From Chloroflexota bacterium (GTDB taxonomy: Bacteria; Chloroflexota; Dehalococcoidia; Lucifugimonadales; UBA2985): a stretch of DNA of 35,202 nucleotides. This document shows, piece by piece, positions 1,598 through 35,202 of this stretch (positions are counted from its first letter, which is position 1; each line of letters starts with the position of its first letter). The notes under the pieces are model-generated. The model had not been told where the DNA came from. It made no database searches and saw only the letters and a program-made list of their open reading frames with translations. Location of the stretch: the NCBI GenBank assembly GCA_028877205.1, contig JAPPHY010000021.1:1-35202 (forward strand), written 5' to 3'. A program made the position numbers and the translations under genes.

Positions 1598-1747
1598 ATG
1601 CGAAAGGCAAATGGTAGGTGCCAAGTGCGTGTTTTTGTGCCTAATGAGGCGGACGTTTCATTTGCCAGCAACTCGTCGTGGCCGCTCATGAAGGGTAGAA
1701 ATCAATGGGCACTAGAGCTGATTGAAAAAGCTGAGGTACTCCAGTGA
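1598..1747 (+). CDS. 49-residue hypothetical protein coupled to the DUF262 gene
   Basis: Unrecognised small protein of 49 residues, starting MRKANGRCQVRVF and ending ELIEKAEVLQ. Its stop TGA (1745-1747) overlaps the GTG start of the DUF262/HNH gene (1744-1746) as GTGA, the classic arrangement for translational coupling. A perfect TATAAT ends 10 nt before its ATG and no Shine-Dalgarno sequence is visible, so translation may be leaderless. Its base composition is low in G+C like the DUF262 gene and unlike the flanking genes, so the two probably arrived together. The sequence is mixed charged and hydrophobic, with no signal peptide or membrane segment and one Cys. It could be a regulator, an antitoxin-like partner, or simply a leader peptide setting translation of the nuclease. 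Reality as a gene is inferred from position, since no homolog is recognised. Confidence 0.5.
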   Translation: MRKANGRCQVRVFVPNEADVSFASNSSWPLMKGRNQWALELIEKAEVLQ

Positions 1748-3696
1748 AGATTAGTACGGTACTTGACCAGATCGACCTAGGCGCTATGGCATTGCCTGTA
1801 TTCCAGAGAGGATTCGTCTGGAATAGAAGTCAGGTGAGAGGGCTAATGCAATCTCTATATCGGAGGCATCCGGTTGGAACGCTGCTGACGTGGAAAACTC
1901 AGACGGAAAACGTCGCGGTCCGAGGGAGTGGGCAACTTCAGGCGGGGTATGTAAGCCTGCTTTTGGACGGTCAGCAAAGGATTACTTCTCTCTACGGCAT
2001 AGTGCGCGGCAAGAACCCTCCTTTCTTCGAGGGCGACAGTAGTGTCTTCAGAGGCTTGTACTTCAACGTCTTGACCGAGACGTTTAGCTTCTACGCGCCA
2101 ATAGCGATGCAGAACGATCCAGCTTGGATAAGCGTGACGGAACTTATGCGCGAAGATATAAAGCCATTTGTCGACAGAATCAAGGATGATCCAGTACTCG
2201 CACCAGAGCTCGCTAGCATCGTAGGCAGACTAACCTCCATCACTGGCATACGCGACATGGAGCTGCATACTGAAGAACTTTCGGGTGAATATCTAGATGA
2301 AGACATCGTGGTGGAAATCTTCAACAGGGTGAATAGCAGCGGAACAAACTTGTCCAAGGGAGACTTGGCCTTGGCAAAACTGTGCGCAAAGTGGCCTGAA
2401 GCGCGGAAGCAAATGAACATGAGGCTCAGCAAGTGGAAGAACGCGGGCTTCAGTTTCAAGCTTGACTGGCTGCTTAGGTGTGTAACCACCCTGATCACTG
2501 GTGAAGCCCAGTTCACCGCACTGGCAAACGTCAAGGTGGTCCAATTCAGAGAAGGCTTGATCAAGACCGAGAAACACGTAGACTATTTGCTTAATCTGAT
2601 AGCCTCACGCTTAGGACTTGACCATGGCCGTGTCTTGGGGAGTCCCGGTTCCTTTCCCCTCATGGTTCGTTACCTAGAACAGCGGGGCGGCAAACTGGCA
2701 GACCAAATGGAGAGCGACCGGCTACTCTATTGGTATATCCACACATTGCTGTGGGGCAGATACTCCAGTTCCACAGAGAGTGTGTTGGGTCAAGATTTGG
2801 CCGCGATCAAGGATGCAGACGATGATCTAGGCCGGCTGATTGAAGGTTTGCGCAGGGATAGAGGTGACCTGAAGCTGACTGCCAGCGACTTTCAGGGTTG
2901 GCGAGTCGACACGAGATTTTACCCCATGTTGTACATGCTTACGAGGGTCCAACATTCTAGGGATTGGTGTAGTGGAATTGAGTTGTCACACCTCACCCTG
3001 GGTAGGTCCAGTAGCTTGCAGTTGCATCACATATTTCCAAAGTCACGGCTCTATGACAACGGATACAGCCTCAGGGAGGTGAATGCCCTAGCAAACTTCA
3101 CCTTTCTTACTCAGAGTTGCAACTTAGAGGTCTCGAACAGGTATCCCTCTGAGTACCTACCCAAGTACAGGGACTCGCAGAGCGGAGCCGTCGAATCACA
3201 CTGGATTCCAATGGACGAAGACCTATGGCAGATAGGCCGCTACCGGGACTTCCTGGCAAAGAGACGGGAGCTCTTGGCCGCGGCCGCAAATGGTTTTCTT
3301 GACGCGCTGAGGGAGGGATCGGTGCCACCGTCGGACGCTATCAGTACTTCCCTTGAGGACTCAGAAGAAGTGAGCCCAACAATGGCAAGTCTAGACGAGG
3401 ATGAGATTCTACTCGATGCCAATATCTGGGTCACGGAGCAGGGTCTGCCAGAGGGGGAAATGCCATTCGAGTTAGTCGATGAAGCAACAGGCGAGCTTCT
3501 GGCAATCTTGGATCTAGCTTGGCCCCATGGTCTCCAAGAGGGGTTGAGCAAGCCGGTTGCTCTCCTCATCGACGAAGACGCCGAGGTCGAAGCAGTTGCA
3601 AGTCAACACGGCTTCAGCTGCTACACGGATGCTGAATCGCTCAAAGGCTACGTTGCCACTCAGATTCTAGCCAGCGAGGAACCCGCAGTCGTTTAG
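1744..3696 (+). CDS. DUF262 / DUF1524-HNH protein (GmrSD-like, putative defence nuclease)
   Basis: Single-chain protein of 650 residues. The N-terminal DUF262 domain shows ALPVFQRGFVW (16-26), the DGQQR motif (75-79) and FNRVNSSGTNLS (193-204). A helical middle follows. A DUF1524-type HNH nuclease region has QLHHIFPKS (426-434) and downstream NALANFTFLT with conserved Asn residues. This order is that of fused GmrS/GmrD type IV restriction enzymes; DUF262 domains are ParB/Srx-fold NTP-using modules and the HNH domain cuts DNA. The last ~90 residues (560-650) are an acidic extra domain containing LDLAWPHGLQEGLSKPVALL, which I do not recognise with certainty. The GTG start is supported by the usual DUF262 N-terminus (KISTVLDQI) and by overlap with the preceding stop. 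Codon use is clearly more AT-rich than in neighbouring genes, which suggests horizontal acquisition. A role against modified phage DNA is inference from the family. Confidence 0.85.
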   Translation: MKISTVLDQIDLGAMALPVFQRGFVWNRSQVRGLMQSLYRRHPVGTLLTWKTQTENVAVRGSGQLQAGYVSLLLDGQQRITSLYGIVRGKNPPFFEGDSSVFRGLYFNVLTETFSFYAPIAMQNDPAWISVTELMREDIKPFVDRIKDDPVLAPELASIVGRLTSITGIRDMELHTEELSGEYLDEDIVVEIFNRVNSSGTNLSKGDLALAKLCAKWPEARKQMNMRLSKWKNAGFSFKLDWLLRCVTTLITGEAQFTALANVKVVQFREGLIKTEKHVDYLLNLIASRLGLDHGRVLGSPGSFPLMVRYLEQRGGKLADQMESDRLLYWYIHTLLWGRYSSSTESVLGQDLAAIKDADDDLGRLIEGLRRDRGDLKLTASDFQGWRVDTRFYPMLYMLTRVQHSRDWCSGIELSHLTLGRSSSLQLHHIFPKSRLYDNGYSLREVNALANFTFLTQSCNLEVSNRYPSEYLPKYRDSQSGAVESHWIPMDEDLWQIGRYRDFLAKRRELLAAAANGFLDALREGSVPPSDAISTSLEDSEEVSPTMASLDEDEILLDANIWVTEQGLPEGEMPFELVDEATGELLAILDLAWPHGLQEGLSKPVALLIDEDAEVEAVASQHGFSCYTDAESLKGYVATQILASEEPAVV

Positions 3697-3815: not shown

Positions 3816-3844
3816 TTGACCCCTGCGTAGGGCTATGCTACCAT
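3816..3844 (+). promoter_or_regulatory. Promoter of the ferredoxin gene
   Basis: TTGACC (3816-3821), a 17-nt spacer and TACCAT (3839-3844) preceded by TGC, which gives an extended -10 TGCTACCAT. The predicted leader to the ATG at 3934 is about 83 nt. Confidence 0.65.
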
Positions 3845-3933: not shown

Positions 3934-4227
3934 ATGACCTACATCATTGCCGAGCCATGCGTGGACGTGAAGGACGGAGCCTGTGTGGACGTCTGCCCGG
4001 TGGACTGCATCTACGGGATGGACAACGAAAATGACCGCATGCTGTACATCCATCCGGATGAGTGCATCGACTGCGCCGCGTGCGAGCCGGTATGCCCGGT
4101 GAACGCCATCTTCGTCGAGGAGGACACGCCGGAGGAGTGGAAGGCGTGGATCCCCATCAACTACGACTTCTTCAAGGACGAAGACGCGACCCGCGCGCAG
4201 GTTGACGAGCTCAAGCCCCGCGGCTAG
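3934..4227 (+). CDS. fdxA: 7Fe ferredoxin ([3Fe-4S][4Fe-4S]), FdxA-like
   Basis: Small cytoplasmic electron carrier of 97 residues. Cys9, Cys17 and Cys54 fit the [3Fe-4S] cluster ligands. Cys21, Cys44, Cys47 and Cys50 fit the [4Fe-4S] cluster, as in Azotobacter FdI and actinobacterial or Thermus FdxA; Cys25 is extra. The second cluster motif reads [13 protein letters not shown]. The C-terminal tail ([15 protein letters not shown]) is typical of this ferredoxin group. A perfect aaggagg ribosome-binding site lies 9 nt before the ATG. The gene has its own promoter and a strong terminator hairpin downstream, so it is probably monocistronic. The redox partner cannot be named from context. Confidence 0.95.
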
Positions 4228-4293
4228 ACCCTCCGTCTCACACCATACAGCGCGACCGCCTTGGCGGTTCCGCCACAGCTAATCGGAGACAAG

Positions 4294-4326
4294 AACAGGG
4301 AGCCTTCTGTAGGAAGGTTCCCTGTT
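4294..4326 (+). terminator. Strong hairpin between ferredoxin and the lipoprotein pair
   Basis: A 14-bp stem (4294-4307 with 4313-4326, one G-T pair) around a 5-nt loop, followed by a short T-containing stretch. It lies between convergent genes, 66 bp after the ferredoxin stop and 48 bp from the 3' end of the minus-strand gene, so it may terminate from both sides. The T tract is weak. Confidence 0.65.
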
Positions 4327-4374
4327 TGCGTTTACACGGGTCACTCTTCGATGCCGGCAATGCGGCCCCGCAGT

Positions 4375-5310
4375 CTACAGCACCTGGCGCAGGCCGGCCA
4401 CCAGCTCATCGAATGAGGCATAGCCCTCGTACTTGGAGGCGATGCGCCCATCCCGGTCCAGGATGAACACGAAGGACTCGTTGAGGTAGTCCTCGATCAT
4501 GCTGAGACCCCAGGTATCGACGAGGGGGGAGTAGCTAGCGGTCGTCAGGTCTCCCTGAATCTCGTGGGGGTTGTCGTACACCTCCACGTGCACAAAGCTG
4601 ACGCTGTCCCTGTATTCGTCCTTCAGCTCGCTCACCGTCTCAACCTGTGGCCCGCAGGTGGGGCTGGTGCACAGCGCTGGGCTGGCGAACACCACGACGG
4701 AGGGCATCCCGTCGCCGACAAGTTGCGGGATGGTGGCCTGGTACAGGTCCGGGTCCGGCGTTGACCAGCTTGTGATCTCGTCAAGGCTGGACACGACCGC
4801 GGCGGTCTTGTTCACCTCCATGGGAGGCGACGTACCGACGGCGGGCGTGAAGCTGGAATCCTTCACGTGGAGTGGAATCCTCGCGGCGCTGATCTCGCCG
4901 TCCGCGCCCTCCGCCTCCACGAAGAGCTCCCACTCGCCCGCACGGTCGAACTCCAGCTGCGTCACGTAGTTGCCCCTGGTGCCGAACGGCCACTGGTAGA
5001 ACGCGGCGGTCGCGGTCTCCGACGGGCTCGCGTCCTCCACGAACGTGGAAGTCAAGGACACCTGAGGCACATTGACGAGCGCCCGAGGGCTGAGGAGCAG
5101 GAACGCCACCCGGTTGGAGCCGACGCTCAGGTCGGTGGTTGCCAGTATGCCAGTCAGGTCGGTGTCGTCCGGTGTAGGCGTGGGCGTTGGGGTCGCGGTC
5201 GGCTCCGGGGTCGGCGTGGGCGAGCTGCAAGCCGCCCCGGCGATAACGATCATCGCCAGGGCGGCCGCCGCCATGACAATTGGCCGGACGCTGCGCGATA
5301 GTGTGGTCAC
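4375..5310 (-). CDS. Thioredoxin-fold lipoprotein with CX4C site
   Basis: Exported lipoprotein of 311 residues. A hydrophobic signal segment (12-27) ends at a lipobox Cys28, followed by a Thr/Pro linker (31-47), a beta-rich domain (about 55-150) and a C-terminal thioredoxin-like domain (about 165-311). The redox-site region reads FASPALCTSPTCGPQVE, with Cys214 and Cys219 separated by four residues rather than the usual two. The end (FVFILDRDGRIASKYEGY) matches the beta-strand after the cis-Pro region in TlpA/redoxin proteins. It probably acts outside the membrane in thiol or metal redox chemistry. The GTG start (5308-5310) has a ggagag site 7 nt upstream. It follows the next redoxin gene by 17 bp, so the two form an operon. 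The specific substrate is unknown. Confidence 0.82.
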   Translation of the reverse strand: MTTLSRSVRPIVMAAAALAMIVIAGAACSSPTPTPEPTATPTPTPTPDDTDLTGILATTDLSVGSNRVAFLLLSPRALVNVPQVSLTSTFVEDASPSETATAAFYQWPFGTRGNYVTQLEFDRAGEWELFVEAEGADGEISAARIPLHVKDSSFTPAVGTSPPMEVNKTAAVVSSLDEITSWSTPDPDLYQATIPQLVGDGMPSVVVFASPALCTSPTCGPQVETVSELKDEYRDSVSFVHVEVYDNPHEIQGDLTTASYSPLVDTWGLSMIEDYLNESFVFILDRDGRIASKYEGYASFDELVAGLRQVL

Positions 5311-5327
5311 TGTTGGGCTCTCCGCTC

Positions 5328-6671
5328 CTACGGCCCTTCCACGTATGAGCCGAAGGTGAATGCGAAAACGCTGAAATCTTCCGAGTTGGAGCTGAGCTTC
5401 AGCTCCAGGCCATTGTACTCCGGCAGCTCCACCACGCGGTACATCCGCGGCTCGTCTACCAGGAAGTAGCTCATACCGTTCTCGTCGTGCATGATGTCGG
5501 CACCGCCGTAGCCCTCCGGAATCGGCTGGTCGTCGAGCGTTGCCACGACCTTGAACGGCTCGCCGTCCTCGAAGTTTATCACCACGTTCACCGTGGTGCC
5601 GTTGAACCGCAGGCCGATGTAGTCCTCCAGGTTCTCAGTGGTCCGGGCGTGGGTGACGTTCTCCAGCTCCTTGGTCCAGAGGCCGTGCAGGTAGAGCAGG
5701 TGGTTCCGGTGGTCGCCCGGGTCCTGGTACAGGAAAGGAGCTCCGACGTCCGCGCTGTAATACTCGATGTTGCCGACGTAGGGCGTAGTGCCGCGGTTGC
5801 GGTACTCTCCGGCGTACAGCTCTCGGGTCTGCCCGGTCTCGATGCCTCCCGTCGCCTTGGGGTCGCGGTCCGGCCTGACAACGCCGCCGACGGGTATGTT
5901 ATAGACCTTGGCGCCCGTCTCCACAAGAAGCTCACGAATCCTCTTTTCCGTCTCCGTGTAAGCTCCTTCGCCGATGTGCGAGTAGCGAACGATGCCATCC
6001 CTGTCGATGAGGTACTTGGCGGGCCATGCGCGATTGTTGTAGGCGCGCCAGGTCTGGAAGTCGTTGTCCTGGACTATCGGGTACTTCAGGCCGTAATCGA
6101 CGGCCGCCGCCTCCACGTTCTCCATGACCTTCTCGAACTCGAACTCCGGCGAATGGACGCCCACTATGACCAGGCCCAGGTCGGCGTACTTGTCGTGCCA
6201 CTCCTTCAGGAAGGGGAGGGTTCGGATGCAGTTGACGCAGGTGTATGTCCAGAAGTCGATGAGCACCACCTGGCCGCGCAGCTCATCCAGGTTGAACGGC
6301 TCCGTGTTGATCCAGCCGGTGATGCCGGCGAGCTGCGGCGCAGTGGGGCCGTCGGCGACGGCGCGAGGCTCTGGAGTGGGCGACGGCTGCGACGGGTCCT
6401 GCGTGGCCTCGGGCTCCGTCGCGGGCTCCTGGGCCGTGGCGTCGGGCACCTCGGAGGTGGGGGTGTCGGAGTCCGTCTGTTCAGTTGTCGGCGCCGGGTC
6501 GGTTGCCGCCTGCTGCTGTTGCTCGGCGGGTGTTGCGGTCGGCGCAGGTGTAGTCGCAGGATCGCCGCCACAGGCCGCCGCGAGCAGGACGACCGCGGCG
6601 AGCAGAGCGATTAGGGTTGCCGCCGACGCCGTGCGGCCGGTCCTTGCCCTGTATACGCTGGATGTTCTCAT
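5328..6671 (-). CDS. Thiol-disulfide oxidoreductase lipoprotein (DipZ C-terminal-like)
   Basis: Exported lipoprotein of 447 residues. The signal segment ends at Cys34 (LLAAAC) and is followed by a long Thr/Pro/Glu linker (about 38-105). A thioredoxin/AhpC-like domain contains FWTYTCVNCIRTLPFL with Cys145 and Cys148, and the cis-Pro segment RAWPAKYLID is near Pro217. The remaining ~170 residues form a beta-rich domain that includes NIEYYSADVG and VNVVINFEDGEPF. This layout resembles the extracellular part of mycobacterial DipZ, where a thioredoxin domain is joined to a carbohydrate-binding-like module; the CcdA membrane part is absent here. Probable role: disulfide exchange or reduction of extracytoplasmic proteins. 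First gene of a two-gene operon. A ribosome-binding site (aggggtg) precedes the ATG and an extended -10 is at 6736-6744. Confidence 0.87.
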   Translation of the reverse strand: MRTSSVYRARTGRTASAATLIALLAAVVLLAAACGGDPATTPAPTATPAEQQQQAATDPAPTTEQTDSDTPTSEVPDATAQEPATEPEATQDPSQPSPTPEPRAVADGPTAPQLAGITGWINTEPFNLDELRGQVVLIDFWTYTCVNCIRTLPFLKEWHDKYADLGLVIVGVHSPEFEFEKVMENVEAAAVDYGLKYPIVQDNDFQTWRAYNNRAWPAKYLIDRDGIVRYSHIGEGAYTETEKRIRELLVETGAKVYNIPVGGVVRPDRDPKATGGIETGQTRELYAGEYRNRGTTPYVGNIEYYSADVGAPFLYQDPGDHRNHLLYLHGLWTKELENVTHARTTENLEDYIGLRFNGTTVNVVINFEDGEPFKVVATLDDQPIPEGYGGADIMHDENGMSYFLVDEPRMYRVVELPEYNGLELKLSSNSEDFSVFAFTFGSYVEGP

Positions 6672-6735
6672 TCGGTCACCCCTGTGTGGTCTCGAGTTTC
6701 GGGACTATTCCCTCAACTGCCAGTCTAGCCCCGCA

Positions 6736-6744
6736 ATATTAGCA
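6736..6744 (-). promoter_or_regulatory. Extended -10 TGCTAATAT of the redoxin operon
   Basis: Minus-strand TG-C-TAATAT, 64 nt upstream of the start at 6671, within an AT-rich patch of an otherwise G+C-rich gap (6672-6876). I see no gene in the remainder of that gap. Confidence 0.55.
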
Positions 6745-6876
6745 TTTTCTTAACGATGTTAATCCGCTCTTACGCAGCCGATATACAGTGTCCATTACAG
6801 ACCATATGCCACGGCTCCGCCACGCTGCGGCGGGCCTTGCGGGGCCGGTAGGCTCGAAAGCAGCGCCACTGACAGT

Positions 6877-7215
6877 TCAGCCGCCTGAGATCGCACAGCC
6901 GGGCGTGAGCTCGTCCGGGAAGTCCCGACACCGCTGCGGCCTGCGGTCGTATATGCGGCATGCGTTGGTCGCGGGGTCGAGCATCGGGCATCGCCAGCCG
7001 GGGTGGTCGTCGAAGCGGACCCAGGCGCGGCCGTCGCTTGCCCACCGCACGACCGCGGTCACGCCGATTGCCGTGGCCTGCTCCCTGAACGGTTGCACCT
7101 CGTGCTCCTGGAGTGCGAGCACCAGGGGTCCCTGGCAGCACATGGCACGGCACTGCTCCATGCAGATGCGGCTGGCGGCCTCGGCGGTGAGGCCGGGAAT
7201 CAGGTGCGGCGCCAT
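6877..7215 (-). CDS. YkgJ-family cysteine-cluster protein
   Basis: Small cytoplasmic protein of 112 residues. Cys residues occur at 18, 22, 26, 27, 76, 86, 96 and 107. The pattern CMEQCRAMCCQGP followed by RCPMLD, ACRIYDRRPQRCRDFP is that of the YkgJ/UPF0153 putative zinc- or Fe-chelating family (PF03692). The ATG at 7213-7215 lies inside the end of the MFS gene (16-bp overlap) with an aggagg site 5 nt upstream, so translation is coupled to the transporter. A longer open frame continues far upstream through the MFS gene, but that part is out of frame with a recognisable protein and is a shadow. The biochemical role of the family is not established. Confidence 0.85.
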   Translation of the reverse strand: MAPHLIPGLTAEAASRICMEQCRAMCCQGPLVLALQEHEVQPFREQATAIGVTAVVRWASDGRAWVRFDDHPGWRCPMLDPATNACRIYDRRPQRCRDFPDELTPGCAISGG

Positions 7216-8426
7216 TGCTTCCTCCTCGCGCTCCGGTCCAGTCGCAGCGCCGAGCGAAAGGTGGCGCCGATGTACAGCGTGATGAAAACGCCGCCCATCG
7301 CCACCGCAAACGGCGGGTTGATGACGGTTGCCACTGCGCCGGCAAGGGAACCACCCACGGACGTAAAGCCGAACGTGAGACCGTAGATGCCGAGCACACG
7401 GCCTCGCATGTCGTCGTCGCAATGCAGTTGGAGCATGGTACCCATCGTAACGTCGTAGGCCATCAAGGAGCCTCCGGCCAGCCCCGCCATCAGCAGCGAG
7501 AGGGCGAACACGGGCGAGTAGGCGAACAGCACAATCGACACGCCTGCGCCCAAAGTGGTGAAGGCGAGCAGCGGGCCCTTGCGCCGGAAGTCGCCGAGCG
7601 AGGCCACGCCCAGCGTGCTGAGCATGGAGCCAAGGCCGCTGGCGGCGGACAGGTAGCCCAGCCCTGTTGCGCCCACATTCAACACGTCCCTGGCCATGAC
7701 TGGCATCATCACCAGATGGGAGAAGCCAAATGCCTCCATCAGCAGGCTGAGGAACAGGAGCCGTCGGATCGCGCTGTTCCGCCATGCGTATCGCAACCCC
7801 TGGCCAGTGGACTGCCAGAACGGCTCGCGCTGCGGAGCGGCGCGAAAGTCGCCTCGAATGACCAGCAGGAACGCCAGCCCGACCGCGGAGCCGGACGCGG
7901 CCAGCAGGTAGCTGCTTCCGACCCCGAAGTTGTGGATGAGAGCGCCTGCTATGAGCGAGCCGATGACGCGGCTGATGTTCATGGCCATGAGACGGGAGGC
8001 CATGGCGTTGAGCAGCCTCTCCGGCCCCACTATCTGATAGGCCAGAACGTTGGATGCGGGCAGCTGCGTTCCCATCAGCATGCCCTGTGTCAGCGCGATG
8101 GGCGCCATGTGCCACAGCTGGATCTGGCCTGTGATCGCGAGGAATCCGGTCAAACCGGAGATGACGAATCCGAAGAAGTAGACGACTCCGAGCACGAAAC
8201 GCTTGTCGTATCGCTCGACGATGGTGCCGCCAAAGGCCCCGAACCCAACGAGGCCAAGGCCCTGGATTCCCGCGATGGCGCCGACCCAGAACGGCGAGTC
8301 GGTGATCTCCAGCACAAGCCATCCCTGCGCGAGCATCCGCACGCTCATCGACATGGAGCCGAAGAGGAAGCTGCCCCACAGCCAACGGAAGGCCGTGACC
8401 TCAAAGGCCATGAGGGTACGCGGCAT
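7200..8426 (-). CDS. MFS transporter, EntS / MFS_3-like exporter
   Basis: Twelve-helix inner-membrane transporter of the major facilitator superfamily, about 408 residues from the ATG at 8424-8426. Hydrophobic helices alternate regularly, with basic loops such as VERYDKRF after helix 2 and DDDMRGRVLGIYGLTF before helix 10. The latter resembles the EntS-like / MFS_3 group of small-molecule exporters. A TTG at 8490-8492 would add 22 residues (430 in total). I prefer 8426 because the family normally begins a few residues before the FRWLWG helix, though a TAGAAT -10 at 8521-8526 (minus) would fit either start. The gene overlaps the downstream YkgJ-type gene. The substrate is unknown. Confidence 0.88.
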   Translation of the reverse strand: MPRTLMAFEVTAFRWLWGSFLFGSMSMSVRMLAQGWLVLEITDSPFWVGAIAGIQGLGLVGFGAFGGTIVERYDKRFVLGVVYFFGFVISGLTGFLAITGQIQLWHMAPIALTQGMLMGTQLPASNVLAYQIVGPERLLNAMASRLMAMNISRVIGSLIAGALIHNFGVGSSYLLAASGSAVGLAFLLVIRGDFRAAPQREPFWQSTGQGLRYAWRNSAIRRLLFLSLLMEAFGFSHLVMMPVMARDVLNVGATGLGYLSAASGLGSMLSTLGVASLGDFRRKGPLLAFTTLGAGVSIVLFAYSPVFALSLLMAGLAGGSLMAYDVTMGTMLQLHCDDDMRGRVLGIYGLTFGFTSVGGSLAGAVATVINPPFAVAMGGVFITLYIGATFRSALRLDRSARRKQWRRT

Positions 8427-8520
8427 GCGCCTCACTGCGGTGTCGCGTCGGGTCAGTGTGCGGTCGGAATCCTGCAAGGCGTCTCCAAGCAAACCGGATT
8501 AGGGAATGACGGCCAGTGGC

Positions 8521-8526
8521 ATTCTA
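8521..8526 (-). promoter_or_regulatory. Putative -10 TAGAAT of the MFS operon
   Basis: TAGAAT on the minus strand in the 177-bp divergent gap between the MFS and SRAP genes, preceded by TG. The -35 is not clear. Confidence 0.4.
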
Positions 8527-8603
8527 CAGGTACGCACGGGCTGCTTCAATGGCGGGGGACTTGCCTTATGAACGCAGGCGATTCGTAGTAAACTGGTGGG
8601 GTC

Positions 8604-9281
8604 ATGTGCGGCAGATACTCGCTGGCGGTGTATGCGTCCGAACTGGCTCTCAGGTTCGACTTCGAGGGCGGCGAGGAGACACTTCCGCCTCGCTTTAACA
8701 TCGCACCCACGCAGGAGGTCCTGGCCGTCACGCGTAACGCCGACGACTCCCGCAACGCAGCGCGGGGCATGCGATGGGGCCTCATTCCGTTCTGGGCCAA
8801 GGACATCTCCATCGGCAACCGCATGATCAACGCCCGTGCGGAGTCGATCGACACAAGCCCCGCCTTCCACCGCGCGTTCGAGAGGCGGCGGTGCCTGGTG
8901 ATCGCGGACGGCTTCTACGAGTGGCTGAAGGTGGGGAAGGACAGAGTGCCGATGCGCATATCGCTACGCTCCGGAGAGCCTTTCGCCTTTGCTGGGCTCT
9001 GGGAGACTTGGCGGTCTCCGGACGGCGAGCCGGTGGCATCGTGCTCCATCATCACCACGACAGCGAACGCCGTTATGGAGCCGATCCATAGCCGAATGCC
9101 CGTCATCCTGCCGGAGTACGCCGAGAGCGTGTGGCTGGACGCCGCGGGCGCGCGTTCAGCAGCGGAGCTCAAGGAGCTCCTCATCCCGTACGCAGGCACC
9201 GACCTGGAGGTCTACGAGGTGTCCAAGCTCGTCAATTCGCCTCGCAACGACACGCCGGAGGTCATGGCGAGGGTAGGCTGA
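8604..9281 (+). CDS. yedK: SRAP-family protein (YedK / HMCES): abasic-site DNA crosslinker
   Basis: SOS response-associated peptidase-like protein of 225 residues. Members react through Cys2 with abasic sites in single-stranded DNA, forming a stable thiazolidine crosslink that shields the lesion. Visible key residues are Cys2 (MCGRYSL), Asn32 in FNIAPTQ, NARAE (76-80), Glu107 in DGFYEWLK and His162 in IHSRMPVIL, so all active-site elements are present. The start is fixed because Cys2 must be N-terminal after Met removal. A TAAACT -10 (8589-8594) ends 9 nt before the ATG, so the mRNA may be leaderless, although ggtgggg could serve as a close ribosome-binding site. No LexA-like operator was recognised. 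It is followed after 33 bp by the aldolase-SDR gene, with no obvious functional link. Confidence 0.95.
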   Translation: MCGRYSLAVYASELALRFDFEGGEETLPPRFNIAPTQEVLAVTRNADDSRNAARGMRWGLIPFWAKDISIGNRMINARAESIDTSPAFHRAFERRRCLVIADGFYEWLKVGKDRVPMRISLRSGEPFAFAGLWETWRSPDGEPVASCSIITTTANAVMEPIHSRMPVILPEYAESVWLDAAGARSAAELKELLIPYAGTDLEVYEVSKLVNSPRNDTPEVMARVG

Positions 9282-9314
9282 CAAGCCCGGAACCGTCGCT
9301 GGAGAAGGCATGGC

Positions 9315-11369
9315 ATGAGGAGCGCGTGGTCTGAGAGCGAGGCGGCCGGGCTGTCGCCGCTGGACCTGCTGGTGTACCAGAGCCGTCTTGTGGGCGGGGA
9401 GCCGGCGCTTGCGCTGTGGGGCGGAGGCAACACCTCGCTTAAGACCATAGAGCGTGACTTCACGGGCGCGGAGCGCTCCGTCCTGCGCATCAAGGGCAGC
9501 GGCGCGGACATGAAGACCATCGGCCGGGGCGGCTTTCCGGGCGTCGTCCTGGACTACGTGCTGCCGCTGCTCGACCGCGACGATATGTCGGACGACGAGA
9601 TGGTGGACTACCTGGGCCACTGCCTGCTGGAGCCGTCGTCGCCGCGGCCGTCCATCGAGACGCTGCTCCACGCCTTCCTGCCCCACGCCAGCGTGGTGCA
9701 CAGCCACGCGGACGCGATCCTGTCGATCACCAACACGCGCAGGCCGTACGAGCTGCTCGCTGAGGCGTTCGGCGAGGAAGTGGCGGCCGTCGCGTACCGC
9801 AGACCGGGCTTTCTGCTGTCGAAGGAGGTGGCACAGAGCGCGCAGACCGGCGCGGCCGTGAGGGGTGTAGCGCTGCTCAACCACGGCCTTGTCACGTGGG
9901 GCGATACGCCGAGAGAGGCCTACGAGACACACATCGAACTCGTCACCCGCTCCGAGGAGTTCGTGAGGACCGCCGCGAGCGGCCGACGGCCGTTCCGCAG
10001 GTCGGAATCGGCGCGACCCACTCCCGCCATTCGCCGTAGGGCGGCGGCCGCGCTTGGCCCCGCGTTGCGAGGCCTGCTGCGGCACGGAGGGGTGCTGCAC
10101 TTCGAGGACGGCGACGAGGTGATGCGGCTGGTGTGCTCTCCGGACGCAGAGTCGCTGGCGCAGGTCGGCGCGGCGACGCCCGACCACCTGCTGACCACGA
10201 AGAGGACGCCACTGGTCGTGGATACCGGAGACGTCTCGGACACGGAACAGGCCAGGTCTAGGCTCGCGGCCGCTGTGGAGGAGTACGCCCGCTCGTACCG
10301 GCAGTGGTACGAGCACCACACGGACGGCGCGCATCCTATGCTGGATCCGTATCCGAGGGTCGTGCTGCTGCGTGGAGTGGGCATGTGGACGGCGGGCGCG
10401 AATGCTCGGGCGGCGCTGGCGGCCGCCGACATATATCGCCACACGATCGACATCATGGCGGGGTCTCAGGCGCTTGACCGGTACGCGTCGCTTTCACTGC
10501 AGGACGCCTACGACGCCGAGTACTGGCCGCTGGAGCTGTACAAGCGGACGCTGGCGCCGCCGGAGCGGGAGCTGTCGGGCCGCGTGGCGCTGGTGACGGG
10601 CGCGGCCAGCGGCATCGGGCGCGCCATCGCGCTGAAGTTCGCGGAGGAGGGCGCGCACGTGGTGGTGACGGACGTACACGCCGCAGGCGCGCGAGCCGTG
10701 GCGCGGGAGATCGCGGAGAGGCACGGCTCGGAGCGCGTCACTCATCGCAGGATGGACGTCACGGATGAGGAATCCGTAAGGGAGGCGTTCTACGCGGCGC
10801 GGCTGGCCTTCGGAGGGTTGGACGTGCTGGTCTCGAACGCGGGCATCGCGCCAGTGGGCGCGATCGACTCGCTGGAGCTTGCGGACTGGCAGCGCAGCCT
10901 ATCGGTGAACGCAACAGGCCACTTCCTGGTCGCGAAGCAGGCTGTAGCAATCATGAGAGAGCAGGGGCTTGGGGGAAGCCTGATCTTCGTCGCCACCAAG
11001 AACGTGCCCGCGCCCGGTCAGGAGCTAGGCGCGTACAGCGCGGCCAAGGCGGCGGAGGCGCAGCTTGCGCGGGTGCTCGCAATCGAGAACGGGCCGCACG
11101 GGATACGCTCCAACATCATCAACCCGGACGCCGTGTTCCAGGGGTCGCGGCTGTGGTCGCCGGCGGTCAGGCGTGGCCGGGCGCAGGCGCACGGCATTCC
11201 GGTCAGTGAGGTGGAGGACTTCTACCGCCGCCGCACGCTTCTGCGAGCAACGGTCACTGCGGAGGATGTCGCGGAGGCGGCGCTGTTCCTGGCGGGGGAT
11301 CGATCGCTGAAGACTACGGGCGCAATGCTGCCGGTCGATGGCGGGCTGCGGGACGCGTTTCCGCGTTAG
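9315..11369 (+). CDS. Bifunctional class II aldolase / short-chain dehydrogenase
   Basis: Fusion of 684 residues, the length of the rhamnulose-1-phosphate aldolase/lactaldehyde dehydrogenase-type proteins (RhaEW/YuxG-like). Residues ~15-390 are the class II aldolase/adducin domain: GGGNTS (36-41), metal-binding HSH (129-131) and His190 in LLNHGLVTWGD. Residues ~421-684 are an SDR with TGAASGIG (429-436), SNAG (507-510), Thr561 at the usual Ser position, and catalytic YSAAK (574-578). In this family the aldolase cleaves a ketose 1-phosphate and the dehydrogenase handles the resulting aldehyde; the exact sugar here is not known. ATG at 9315 with ggagaa upstream. No kinase, isomerase or sugar transporter is adjacent, so the pathway context is missing. 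Confidence 0.93.
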   Translation: MRSAWSESEAAGLSPLDLLVYQSRLVGGEPALALWGGGNTSLKTIERDFTGAERSVLRIKGSGADMKTIGRGGFPGVVLDYVLPLLDRDDMSDDEMVDYLGHCLLEPSSPRPSIETLLHAFLPHASVVHSHADAILSITNTRRPYELLAEAFGEEVAAVAYRRPGFLLSKEVAQSAQTGAAVRGVALLNHGLVTWGDTPREAYETHIELVTRSEEFVRTAASGRRPFRRSESARPTPAIRRRAAAALGPALRGLLRHGGVLHFEDGDEVMRLVCSPDAESLAQVGAATPDHLLTTKRTPLVVDTGDVSDTEQARSRLAAAVEEYARSYRQWYEHHTDGAHPMLDPYPRVVLLRGVGMWTAGANARAALAAADIYRHTIDIMAGSQALDRYASLSLQDAYDAEYWPLELYKRTLAPPERELSGRVALVTGAASGIGRAIALKFAEEGAHVVVTDVHAAGARAVAREIAERHGSERVTHRRMDVTDEESVREAFYAARLAFGGLDVLVSNAGIAPVGAIDSLELADWQRSLSVNATGHFLVAKQAVAIMREQGLGGSLIFVATKNVPAPGQELGAYSAAKAAEAQLARVLAIENGPHGIRSNIINPDAVFQGSRLWSPAVRRGRAQAHGIPVSEVEDFYRRRTLLRATVTAEDVAEAALFLAGDRSLKTTGAMLPVDGGLRDAFPR

Positions 11370-11534
11370 CGGAGCATCCGCTCATGTCCTTCGACAGGCT
11401 CAGGATGAGCGAACTAGCACGGCCTGCTCATGCCCTCCAACAGGCTCCGCACCTGATGCGGGGATGAGCGGACTACTCTTGCCCACTCGTGGTGAGCACG
11501 TCGATCCATTCGAGCGGGCGGTTATGGCTTCGTC

Positions 11535-11554
11535 ACCCTCGCGTACGCGGGGGT
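11535..11554. repeat. REP-like palindrome 1
   Basis: Imperfect 9-bp inverted repeat around a TA centre (core CGCGTACGCG) with one T-G pair, inside the repeat cluster. Confidence 0.6.
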
Positions 11555-11583
11555 CTAGGCCCCGGAGGCGGGGAGGGGGACGG

Positions 11584-11603
11584 ATTCCCGCGTGCGCGGG
11601 AAT
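11584..11603. repeat. REP-like palindrome 2
   Basis: Perfect 9-bp inverted repeat ATTCCCGCG / CGCGGGAAT around TG, followed by GACGG. It resembles REP elements common in high-G+C genomes. Confidence 0.7.
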
Positions 11604-11778
11604 GACGGAAGTGAGGCCGTCCGTCTGCTCATTTCCTTCGACTAGCTCAGGATGAGCGGACTACTCTTGACCGCTCGTGGTGAGCCCGTCGAACCACTTG
11701 AGTGGGCACACGCAGAGAGCGGGCATCCCCCGCTCATTTCCTTCGACAAGCTCAGGATGAGCGGTCGGTAGAAGCGCC

Positions 11779-12465
11779 TTACCCGCTCCAGCCCAACTCC
11801 GCCATGTCGTGGAAGAGCAGGCCGGTGACCTCCCTGGGCTGCGTCACCAGCCACAGCGCGGCCTCGGCGGAGGTCCTGGGGTGGAGGGGCGCATCCGGCG
11901 CCATGTCCGTGAGCACCCATCCGGGCGACAGCGCGTTTACGGCCGCCTTGCCCGCCAGCTCGCCGGCCGAGGCTATGGTGAGCGCGTGCAGCGCGGCCTT
12001 CGATACGCCGTAGACGCCGCGCAGGTCCTGCGACATCACGCCCGAGGTGGAGCCGACGTTGATCACGCGGGGGTCGTCAGACTCCAGCAGGAGCGGGATG
12101 AGCCGCTTCGTGCAGAGGTACACGCCGGTCACGTTGATGGCAATCGTCCGCTCAAACTCATAGTCCGGGAGGTCGTATAGCCCGCCGATTTCCTTCGGCG
12201 ACACACCTGCGTTGTTGACGAGCACGTCGAGCGCGCCCCAGTAGCCGCTGACCCACTCGGCGATGCGGTCGTTGTCGGCGGCTGTGGAGACGTCGGCCTG
12301 CAGGACGCGGAGGCCGGATAGCTCACGCTGCGCCTGGTCCAGCTTCGCCCGGTCTCGTGAGACGGCCAGCACGTCGGCGCCATTCTCGAGGAATATCTTG
12401 CAGATCTCGTAGCCTATGCCGCGGCTTCCGCCCGTGACCAGCGTCCTCTTGCCCTGGAGGGACAT
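11779..12465 (-). CDS. Short-chain dehydrogenase/reductase
   Basis: Classical SDR of 228 residues. TGGSRGIG (11-18) binds the cofactor, NNAG (84-87) and Asn111 are present, and the catalytic set is Ser139, Tyr152 and Lys156 (YGVSK). The C-terminus is shorter than usual and lacks the DGG segment, but LSPGWVLTDM is intact, so the substrate loop differs from FabG-type members. An aaggagt ribosome-binding site precedes the ATG and an extended -10 TGCTAACTT is at 12494-12502. It stands alone and converges with the aldolase-SDR gene. The substrate is unknown. Confidence 0.92.
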   Translation of the reverse strand: MSLQGKRTLVTGGSRGIGYEICKIFLENGADVLAVSRDRAKLDQAQRELSGLRVLQADVSTAADNDRIAEWVSGYWGALDVLVNNAGVSPKEIGGLYDLPDYEFERTIAINVTGVYLCTKRLIPLLLESDDPRVINVGSTSGVMSQDLRGVYGVSKAALHALTIASAGELAGKAAVNALSPGWVLTDMAPDAPLHPRTSAEAALWLVTQPREVTGLLFHDMAELGWSG

Positions 12466-12493
12466 GGCGACTCCTTACGGCTGGAATGCGCCA

Positions 12494-12502
12494 AAGTTAG
12501 CA
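12494..12502 (-). promoter_or_regulatory. Extended -10 TGCTAACTT of the SDR gene
   Basis: Minus-strand TG-C-TAACTT, 28 nt upstream of the ATG at 12465. Same TGCTAnnnT form as several other promoters here. Confidence 0.5.
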
Positions 12503-18872: not shown

Positions 18873-19589
18873 CTACTGGGTCACAAGCCTTGGAATCGTC
18901 AAAGGCGCTGGTATCCAGTTCTCAGGTACCCATGACATGAGGTTCTGGCAGACTTGTATCTGAGAGGTGTTCTGTGTTCCGTCTGAGTAGACCAAGGGTT
19001 CATACACACACCGCCAATACTGCTCCATGGTGTCTTCGCGCCACCTACCCATTGGGTTCCTTTCCCTAACTTCAATGAACCGTTCCAAAGAGGTATACTC
19101 TTCGCTACATGGGCCTTTCGTCTGTTGCACTTCATTCATGTAGTTGGCATTTTCGATTGCGCTACGAATGTCCCACAGCGCATCATCGTGCAGGAATCGG
19201 GTGGGCAATTCTAGGCGCCTTTCCCACCACCCCTTCTCTCGAAGAATCTCCTCTTCAGTACCTTGGTACTCCACTGTCTCCAGAATGTATGAGGTACAAC
19301 GAGGGCTAAAGGAGAATTCCAACGTTAGCTCCGGCCAAATCACCAATTCTTCTGCTTGCTCACTCGAGGCCACTTGTTCAACAGAATTGCCCGTAGATTC
19401 TTGAATTTCAGTTGATCCAGGCTCGCCAGGCAACCCCTGCGGTCCCTGTTCTCCTTGTTCACCCTGGGGCCCAGGCAGTCCCTGTTCCCCTCGTTCACCC
19501 TGAGGGCCTGGCGGTCCTTGGACACACGCGGGCATCAGTAGGAGACAGAAGAACAGTGTCACTGCTTTAGCAGCCACGGATTCACGCAT
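18873..19589 (-). CDS. Lipoprotein with collagen-like repeat
   Basis: Exported lipoprotein of 238 residues. A signal segment (9-21) ends at Cys22 in LLMPAC. Immediately after it come 11 Gly-X-Y triplets (about residues 25-57), rich in GPQ, GEQ and GLP, as in bacterial collagen-like stalks. The remaining ~180 residues contain a Ser/Glu linker and a Trp- and Cys-containing C-terminal domain with four or five Cys (PRCTSY, GPCSEEY, RCVYEP, VCQNL) that I do not recognise. The collagen part probably makes a trimeric stalk that presents the C-terminal domain at the surface. The coding sequence is lower in G+C than neighbours. A gagagg site precedes the ATG. The 120-bp gap on its 3' side holds nothing clear. 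Confidence 0.8.
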   Translation of the reverse strand: MRESVAAKAVTLFFCLLLMPACVQGPPGPQGERGEQGLPGPQGEQGEQGPQGLPGEPGSTEIQESTGNSVEQVASSEQAEELVIWPELTLEFSFSPRCTSYILETVEYQGTEEEILREKGWWERRLELPTRFLHDDALWDIRSAIENANYMNEVQQTKGPCSEEYTSLERFIEVRERNPMGRWREDTMEQYWRCVYEPLVYSDGTQNTSQIQVCQNLMSWVPENWIPAPLTIPRLVTQ

Positions 19590-31058: not shown

Positions 31059-32219
31059 ATGAGCGGCGAGCCACAACTTTTTCGGGTTGATCCACAGAGT
31101 CGGGAGTCCAAGCGCATTGAAGAGGTGGATTTTCGCCAATTGGGACTCCAGGAGAGGCAAGACATTCAGGAGTGGGTAGCCGTTAACCCAGGCATTTTGG
31201 GTGACGACCTTCTGATAGTTGGCAAGGAGTTTCGAGGCTTTGACCGAACAGATGAAAGACTTGACCTGCTGGGGGTAGACCCAGACGGTAAGCTCGTGGT
31301 GATTGAGCTAAAGCGCGATGACACGGGCGCAGACGCTCACTGGCAGGCAATAAAGTACGCAAGCTACTTTCGTCGGGCCTCTGCGGAGCAGATCGTGGGC
31401 ATGCTGGCCGGGTACAAGAATGTCTCCACCGAAGACTCTGAGGAAGAATTGGTGCAGCACCTTGGTGGCGATGACCTCAACTCGCTGAACAACGACCAGC
31501 GAATCATCCTAGCGAGCCACCGGTTCGCTCCTGAGGTGACCTCTGCTGCCTTGTGGCTTAACAGTAAGACTCCCGGTGAAGAGTTGATTACCTGCGTCAC
31601 GCTTACCCCCTTTCGGGATGCCGACACTGGTGCATTGTATGTCCAGGCGGCTACGATCATACCCGTGCCGGGAGAAGAGGACTACGTCATCGGTATAGAC
31701 ACCACCTCACCGCACGCCTCAAGTACGGGAAGTAGCAACTTTGCAGCCAACTTGAAAAGGACGTTCCAGAGGCATAGGAATGACGAAGTTACCCCCTTCG
31801 TCAAGAAGGTGGGCAAGCTCGCATTGCAGGAACTCCCGGTTGAGGTCCGACCAACCAAAGTCGGCAAATGGGCCGCCGGCCGGCCGGACTTCCGATACTA
31901 CAATCTCTGGTATGGAAAGCCTCCGTGGCGCAACCATCACGTATGCTACAGGGTTACTCTCAGGCCGCAAGACTCAGACAGATGGTTGGCGATTGTGCGG
32001 TTCATGGATGAGCGGAAGCTCACTTCCCAGCACTTGGAAAGAGCGCAAATCCACGAGAACCAAGAGACGGACGATGAAGGACTCTTTGTGAAGATTGGAG
32101 TCGAGACACTCAACGACGACTTCGCCGGCAGGATCGCCGACACTTTACGTCAAGTAATTGAGCACATCACGCCAATTGTGGACAACCTTGAAGAAGAGAG
32201 CAACGAAGAAGAAGCCTGA
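31059..32219 (+). CDS. PD-(D/E)XK nuclease-like protein (NucS/DUF91-like N-terminus)
   Basis: Protein of 386 residues. The N-terminal ~115 residues carry a PD-(D/E)XK-type core: DERLDLLGVD (65-74, Asp69), VVIELKR (80-86, Glu83 and Lys85), then HWQAIKYASYF with the Gln and Tyr typical of NucS/DUF91-like and related nuclease domains. The rest is unrecognised. It has FANLKRTF-like helical stretches and a C-terminal domain with YRVTLRPQDSDRWLAIVRFM, similar in feel to DUF4268-type domains, and an acidic tail. A gagaggag site precedes the ATG. The coding sequence is lower in G+C than its neighbours. It stands alone, so a role in defence or DNA repair is inference from the nuclease motif only. Confidence 0.75.
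   Translation: MSGEPQLFRVDPQSRESKRIEEVDFRQLGLQERQDIQEWVAVNPGILGDDLLIVGKEFRGFDRTDERLDLLGVDPDGKLVVIELKRDDTGADAHWQAIKYASYFRRASAEQIVGMLAGYKNVSTEDSEEELVQHLGGDDLNSLNNDQRIILASHRFAPEVTSAALWLNSKTPGEELITCVTLTPFRDADTGALYVQAATIIPVPGEEDYVIGIDTTSPHASSTGSSNFAANLKRTFQRHRNDEVTPFVKKVGKLALQELPVEVRPTKVGKWAAGRPDFRYYNLWYGKPPWRNHHVCYRVTLRPQDSDRWLAIVRFMDERKLTSQHLERAQIHENQETDDEGLFVKIGVETLNDDFAGRIADTLRQVIEHITPIVDNLEEESNEEEA

Positions 32220-35140: not shown

Positions 35141-35202
<62 letters not shown>

Follow-up and report, generated by a model that had tools for sequence, protein, structure and literature searches.

The gene at positions 1744-3696 (+) of the DNA analysed here (the window, a stretch of 35,202 nucleotides) belongs to the known GmrSD family. 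It is probably a single, acquired and self-sufficient nuclease gene standing between an SDR-family reductase gene and a ferredoxin gene, and the 49-codon open reading frame (ORF) overlapping its start is most likely open by chance. A preliminary description of the locus had interpreted the two frames as a fused DUF262-HNH nuclease with a small partner protein; the nuclease part of this interpretation holds, whereas the partner part is not supported. The elements of the overlap are:

1598-1747, + strand: small ORF, 49 codons, ATG-initiated, without a clear Shine-Dalgarno (SD) sequence or conserved counterparts; located in the nuclease leader and probably either open by chance or a relic
1733-1736, + strand: GAGG, SD sequence of the DUF262/HNH gene, 7 nt before the GTG; predicted to pair with leader bases 1640-1642 and 1666
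1744-3696, + strand: stand-alone GmrSD-family nuclease gene with a GTG start at 1744, 650 codons (650 aa), recognized by Pfam, PADLOC and fold match

The coordinates, the lengths and the GTGA overlap of the two frames are exactly those given in the preliminary description, and the TATAAT hexamer noted there is present at 1582-1587, 10 nt from the ATG of the small ORF. The low G+C content claimed for both frames was also confirmed: it is 49.3% in the 49-codon ORF and 52.5% in the nuclease gene, as against 66.8% (1-1471) and 65.9% (4228-12500) in the flanks. The G+C content is already reduced, to 55.6%, in the segment preceding the small ORF (1472-1597). The start of the nuclease gene is considered secure because it has a good SD sequence and because the GTG aligns with the Met-Lys-Ile start of the homologues.

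The nuclease matched the Pfam profile GmrSD_N at 3.9e-23 (83.1 bits, cut-off 33.2). The match to GmrSD_C was below the cut-off (14.8 bits vs 23), as was that to HNH_4, and the assignment of the HNH domain is therefore based on motif and fold. The best PADLOC model, judged by profile match alone, was PDLC04151 (HEC-05; 2.9e-41 over residues 2-514). A profile search of the PDB returned a single sequence (7p9k/7p9m, 7e-24), which is annotated as a DUF262 protein, and the fold search with an AlphaFold2 model of the nuclease (pLDDT 83.5) identified BrxU as the best match (E 7.5e-16, Z ~20 over residues 1-525), followed by SspE and DndI. The GmrSD_N and BrxU matches bear out the earlier reading of the gene as a fused, GmrSD-like DUF262-HNH nuclease. 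Three domains were distinguished:

1750-2382, + strand: DUF262 domain (GmrSD_N, ParB/Srx-like NTPase), residues 3-213, with FQRG and DGQQR (D75-R79) motifs
2914-3240, + strand: HNH (DUF1524-like) nuclease domain, residues 391-499, with invariant H428, H429, N451 and N460
3388-3666, + strand: extra C-terminal domain, residues 549-641, with the order a-b-b-b-a-b-a in the model

Residues D75, G76, Q77, Q78 and R79 (the sequence reads LDGQQR) are invariant in 70 sequences, and the four HNH residues listed above are likewise invariant in the 70 homologues. ParB-CTPase structures align to residues 1-201 and Cas9 HNH structures to residues 391-499 (Z 5-6). Because the fold match to BrxU is accompanied by invariant DGQQR and HNH residues, the protein is a fused member of the GmrSD family with intact motifs. 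Its DUF262 domain would bind or hydrolyse NTP and sense DNA, and its HNH domain would cut DNA; the enzyme most likely acts alone, as a nucleotide-gated and probably modification-dependent DNA endonuclease directed against phage or plasmid DNA.

The C-terminal domain, for which no Pfam match was found, is common to the close homologues of the nuclease, and E552, D590, W593, G596 and Q598 are invariant in their alignment. Its structural matches were modest and included two mitoribosomal chains (9g6k_L9, Z 6.6; 6z1p_AS, Z 5.7). The order of helices and strands in the model and these two chains point, as we assume, to a link with Vsr/RAP-like proteins of the PD-(D/E)XK type, and the domain may possibly be a module of this kind. 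Four cyanobacterial homologues (L041, L042, L044 and L136; 771-772 aa) have approximately 120 further residues at the C-terminus. Two relatives of the nuclease are broken: one (L013) lacks residues ~78 to ~509 and then runs into a stop, and the other (L026) has kept the C-terminal fragment alone.

The insertion site is defined by the following features:

671-1471, - strand: left flank, SDR-family reductase gene, which adjoins the ferredoxin gene in relatives (73% identical in G004, 64% in G001)
3816-3844, + strand: native ferredoxin promoter, TTGACC-17-TACCAT, matching TTGAAT...ATGCTATAAT in two relatives
3934-4227, + strand: right flank, ferredoxin gene

The SDR and ferredoxin genes are separated by 2462 bp here, and by 281 and 208 bp in two genomes from the same family, where they are neighbours. 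Since the native ferredoxin promoter is recognizable, the insertion probably ends before ~3810. Bounded by the SDR gene on one side and this promoter on the other, the acquired piece therefore carries essentially one gene, and the event would have been the acquisition of a lone GmrSD-family (BrxU-like, PADLOC HEC-05-type) gene and its insertion between the two flanking genes. The ORF list contained no integrase-like gene beside the nuclease, a search of the insertion for terminal repeats and target-site duplications gave none that were convincing, and none of the 89 nuclease homologues compared was found to occupy this chromosomal position.

Some other parts of the window were also conspicuous. 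A second solitary low-G+C gene of defence type (31059-32219, + strand; 386 aa) lies between glyoxalase-like and CoA-transferase-like genes, and Pfam (4.7e-7) recognizes a NucS_C-like nuclease domain in its product, which also matches the PADLOC model PDC-S11 (2e-65). Another low-G+C patch contains a gene (18873-19589, - strand) whose 238-aa product has collagen-like Gly-X-Y repeats and begins like a lipoprotein. The window ends in a nearly pure G run of ~55 nt (35142-35202), which is suggestive of an artefact of sequencing or assembly.

To judge the overlap between the small ORF and the nuclease gene, a set of 90 loci was compared, consisting of this locus and the 89 homologues, which are mostly 48-60% identical. 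In 65 of the 90 loci the nuclease gene starts with NTGA, because the codon next to that for the initial Met begins with A. With A in this position a TGA always arises one base into the start codon, and the GTGA overlap is therefore nearly automatic and uninformative. Here it is a by-product of the N-terminus, GTG-AAG containing TGA. Because any protein with Met and an A-initial codon produces this TGA, an overlap of stop and start says little in favour of coupled gene pairs among the DUF262/HNH nuclease genes studied.

A comparable conserved ORF was found upstream in none of the 89 homologues. The preliminary description had named a conserved small upstream ORF with the same overlap as the mark of a partner gene, and its absence from all 89 speaks largely against that proposal. 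A close relative carrying the nuclease locus was not found; the nearest nuclease is 60% identical, and its upstream region is unrelated. The 49-residue product had no credible counterpart in 197 relatives (weak, chance-level matches only), in 400 genomes of the phylum, plasmids, phages and viral contigs, or in the 49 genomes carrying a nuclease homologue (best E 0.046), and nothing was found in Pfam, NCBIfam, PADLOC or PHROGs. A six-frame comparison of this 49-residue sequence with the fetched loci, the upstream genes of the homologues included, gave no match above chance in any upstream gene. Eighteen matches were obtained in the PDB, mostly to DARPins (best E 0.0008), and were judged to be chance because they are short, involve designed repeat proteins and nearly all lack a single stretch passing the threshold. 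Thus the small partner protein of the preliminary description found no support, either as a counterpart in the homologues or as a relative in any collection searched. A real partner (inhibitor, specificity factor or antitoxin-like) co-translated with the nuclease could draw on the stop/start overlap, the shared base composition and a coding-like codon score, but in view of these negative searches, of the low confidence of its single-sequence structure model (pLDDT 64) and of the ability of BrxU to work without one (PMC8565348), we consider it very improbable. Since the nearest nuclease homologue is just 60% identical, the frame may conceivably encode a fast-evolving or lineage-specific small protein.

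What lies upstream of the nuclease homologues varies (HsdS, PLD, ParA-like, DUF4391, or nothing), and such variety, with hsdS as a frequent neighbour, agrees with the literature on RloF and GmrSD. Frames of at least 142 codons overlap the nuclease start by ATGA or GTGA in nine homologues; four of these frames encode HsdS, one a PLD-like, one a ParA-like and one a DUF4391 protein, and two have no Pfam match. The 49-codon frame could accordingly be read as the 3' end of an upstream gene of the donor, truncated at the left border of the insertion, a reading with which its coding-like codon score and its beginning close to the change in G+C content are consistent. The 49-residue sequence, however, resembles neither the C-terminus of any upstream neighbour nor any family, and such an origin seems to us quite improbable. 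On the conjugative Nostoc plasmid pNPM2 (L136) the nuclease homologue adjoins drmC, a helicase gene and a PD-(D/E)XK nuclease gene, a DISARM-like neighbourhood.

The frequency of such a frame by chance was estimated from dinucleotide shuffles in which the overlapping TGA was held fixed and frames of at least 49 codons were counted. These were obtained in 2.0-6.6% of the shuffles with any start and in 0.5-3.8% with ATG only. Among the 65 NTGA loci the forced frame is at least 49 codons long in 12, nine of which are the long frames described above. Besides the 49-codon ORF itself, the short examples near this size are frames of 52 codons at L051 (not in phase with a frame of 174 codons) and at L094 (its end resembling an HsdS tail), 48 codons at L091 and 47 codons at L079 (likewise out of phase, here with a frame of 971 codons). 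Spurious-looking frames of 47-52 codons thus occur in ~3 of the 64 other NTGA homologues, in agreement with the 2-7% of the shuffles, and none of the short forced frames of other loci resembles the 49-residue sequence. The codon use of the 49-codon frame is weakly coding-like: its score is -1.1 bits, compared with means of 1.5 for true-frame and -12.6 for wrong-frame pieces of the nuclease gene, and a score as high is reached by 71% of the true-frame and by 19% of the open wrong-frame pieces.

Two features precede or lie within the small ORF:

1559-1587, + strand: possible promoter, TTGCAG (weak -35-like), 17 nt, TATAAT (1582-1587)
1616-1627, + strand: putative alternative start, SD-like AGGTG (1616-1620) and in-frame GTG 1625, read directly from the sequence; would give a 40-aa version

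Promoter statistics were drawn from 373 kb of host sequence, in which exact TATAAT is rare (28 sites on both strands); seven sites lie within 300 nt of gene-like starts, six of them 20-60 nt upstream. The hexamer at 1582-1587 may for these reasons represent a genuine -10 element. At 17-nt spacing the best -35 sequence, TTGCAG, matches the consensus at 3 of 6 positions, and the pair was absent from the output of a consensus promoter scan. The possibility that ATG 1598 is translated without a leader was considered and rejected: none of 149 host gene-like ORFs had an exact TATAAT less than 20 nt from its start, which makes the 10-nt geometry unusual, the test being rough since the first ATG or GTG was taken as start. 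GTG 1625 stands 37 nt after the TATAAT, the usual distance for this genome, whereas ATG 1598 does not.

No Rfam or tRNA features were found in the leader. Its predicted minimum free energy is -54.8 kcal/mol (z -1.74), with 10 of 200 shuffles folding equally stably, and the probability that the nuclease SD sequence is unpaired was predicted to be ~0.08-0.09, a value exceeded by 21 of 23 homologous leaders, and to rise to ~0.3 if the upstream leader is held open. These predictions would fit a leader in which translation from ATG 1598, or from GTG 1625 with its SD-like AGGTG, opens a hairpin hiding the nuclease SD sequence, the peptide itself being inert. But 9% of the shuffled leaders hide the SD sequence as well, the SD-like site of GTG 1625 is itself predicted to be paired and no homologue retains such an ORF, which makes this mechanism unlikely. 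There is, by the same estimate, a small probability that a lineage-specific leader ORF, possibly starting at GTG 1625, acts as a brake on the translation of a solitary restriction enzyme. The coding-like codon score, the 2-7% rarity and GTG 1625 with its AGGTG and 37-nt spacing were counted against a chance origin; the 49-codon ORF would still most likely be a chance, non-conserved open frame in the ~150-nt leader of a nuclease that needs no partner.

Most GmrSD proteins are fused into a single chain, and the family is enriched near type I restriction-modification (R-M) genes, the name RloF being used for DUF262 proteins encoded between hsdS and hsdR (PMC4619093), and BrxU alone, without a partner, is sufficient for phage defence (PMC8565348). 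In several homologues the gene comes immediately after hsdS and overlaps it by 4 nt, an arrangement known from RloF (PMC4619093), but the nuclease studied here has no adjoining type I R-M genes, its neighbours being the SDR and ferredoxin genes, which are of housekeeping type, and does not lie between hsdS and hsdR. HEC-05, the best PADLOC model for the nuclease, is a candidate defence class of PADLOC only, and no paper naming it was found in the literature. The combination of DUF262 and HNH domains and its fold are also found in SspE and DndI (9jfl, 7dri, 7drr), but these match less well than BrxU, and no phosphorothioation genes were seen beside the nuclease. Like the type IV restriction enzyme BrxU (PDB 7p9k/7p9m), the protein is a single chain with DUF262 and HNH domains; the two are ~21-23% identical, and there are no BREX genes in the window. 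The C-terminal domain (residues 549-641) lies outside the BrxU alignment. What this locus contributes to the known systems is a GmrSD-family gene that is solitary and cleanly inserted, and whose product has an uncharacterised C-terminal domain common to its nearest homologues.
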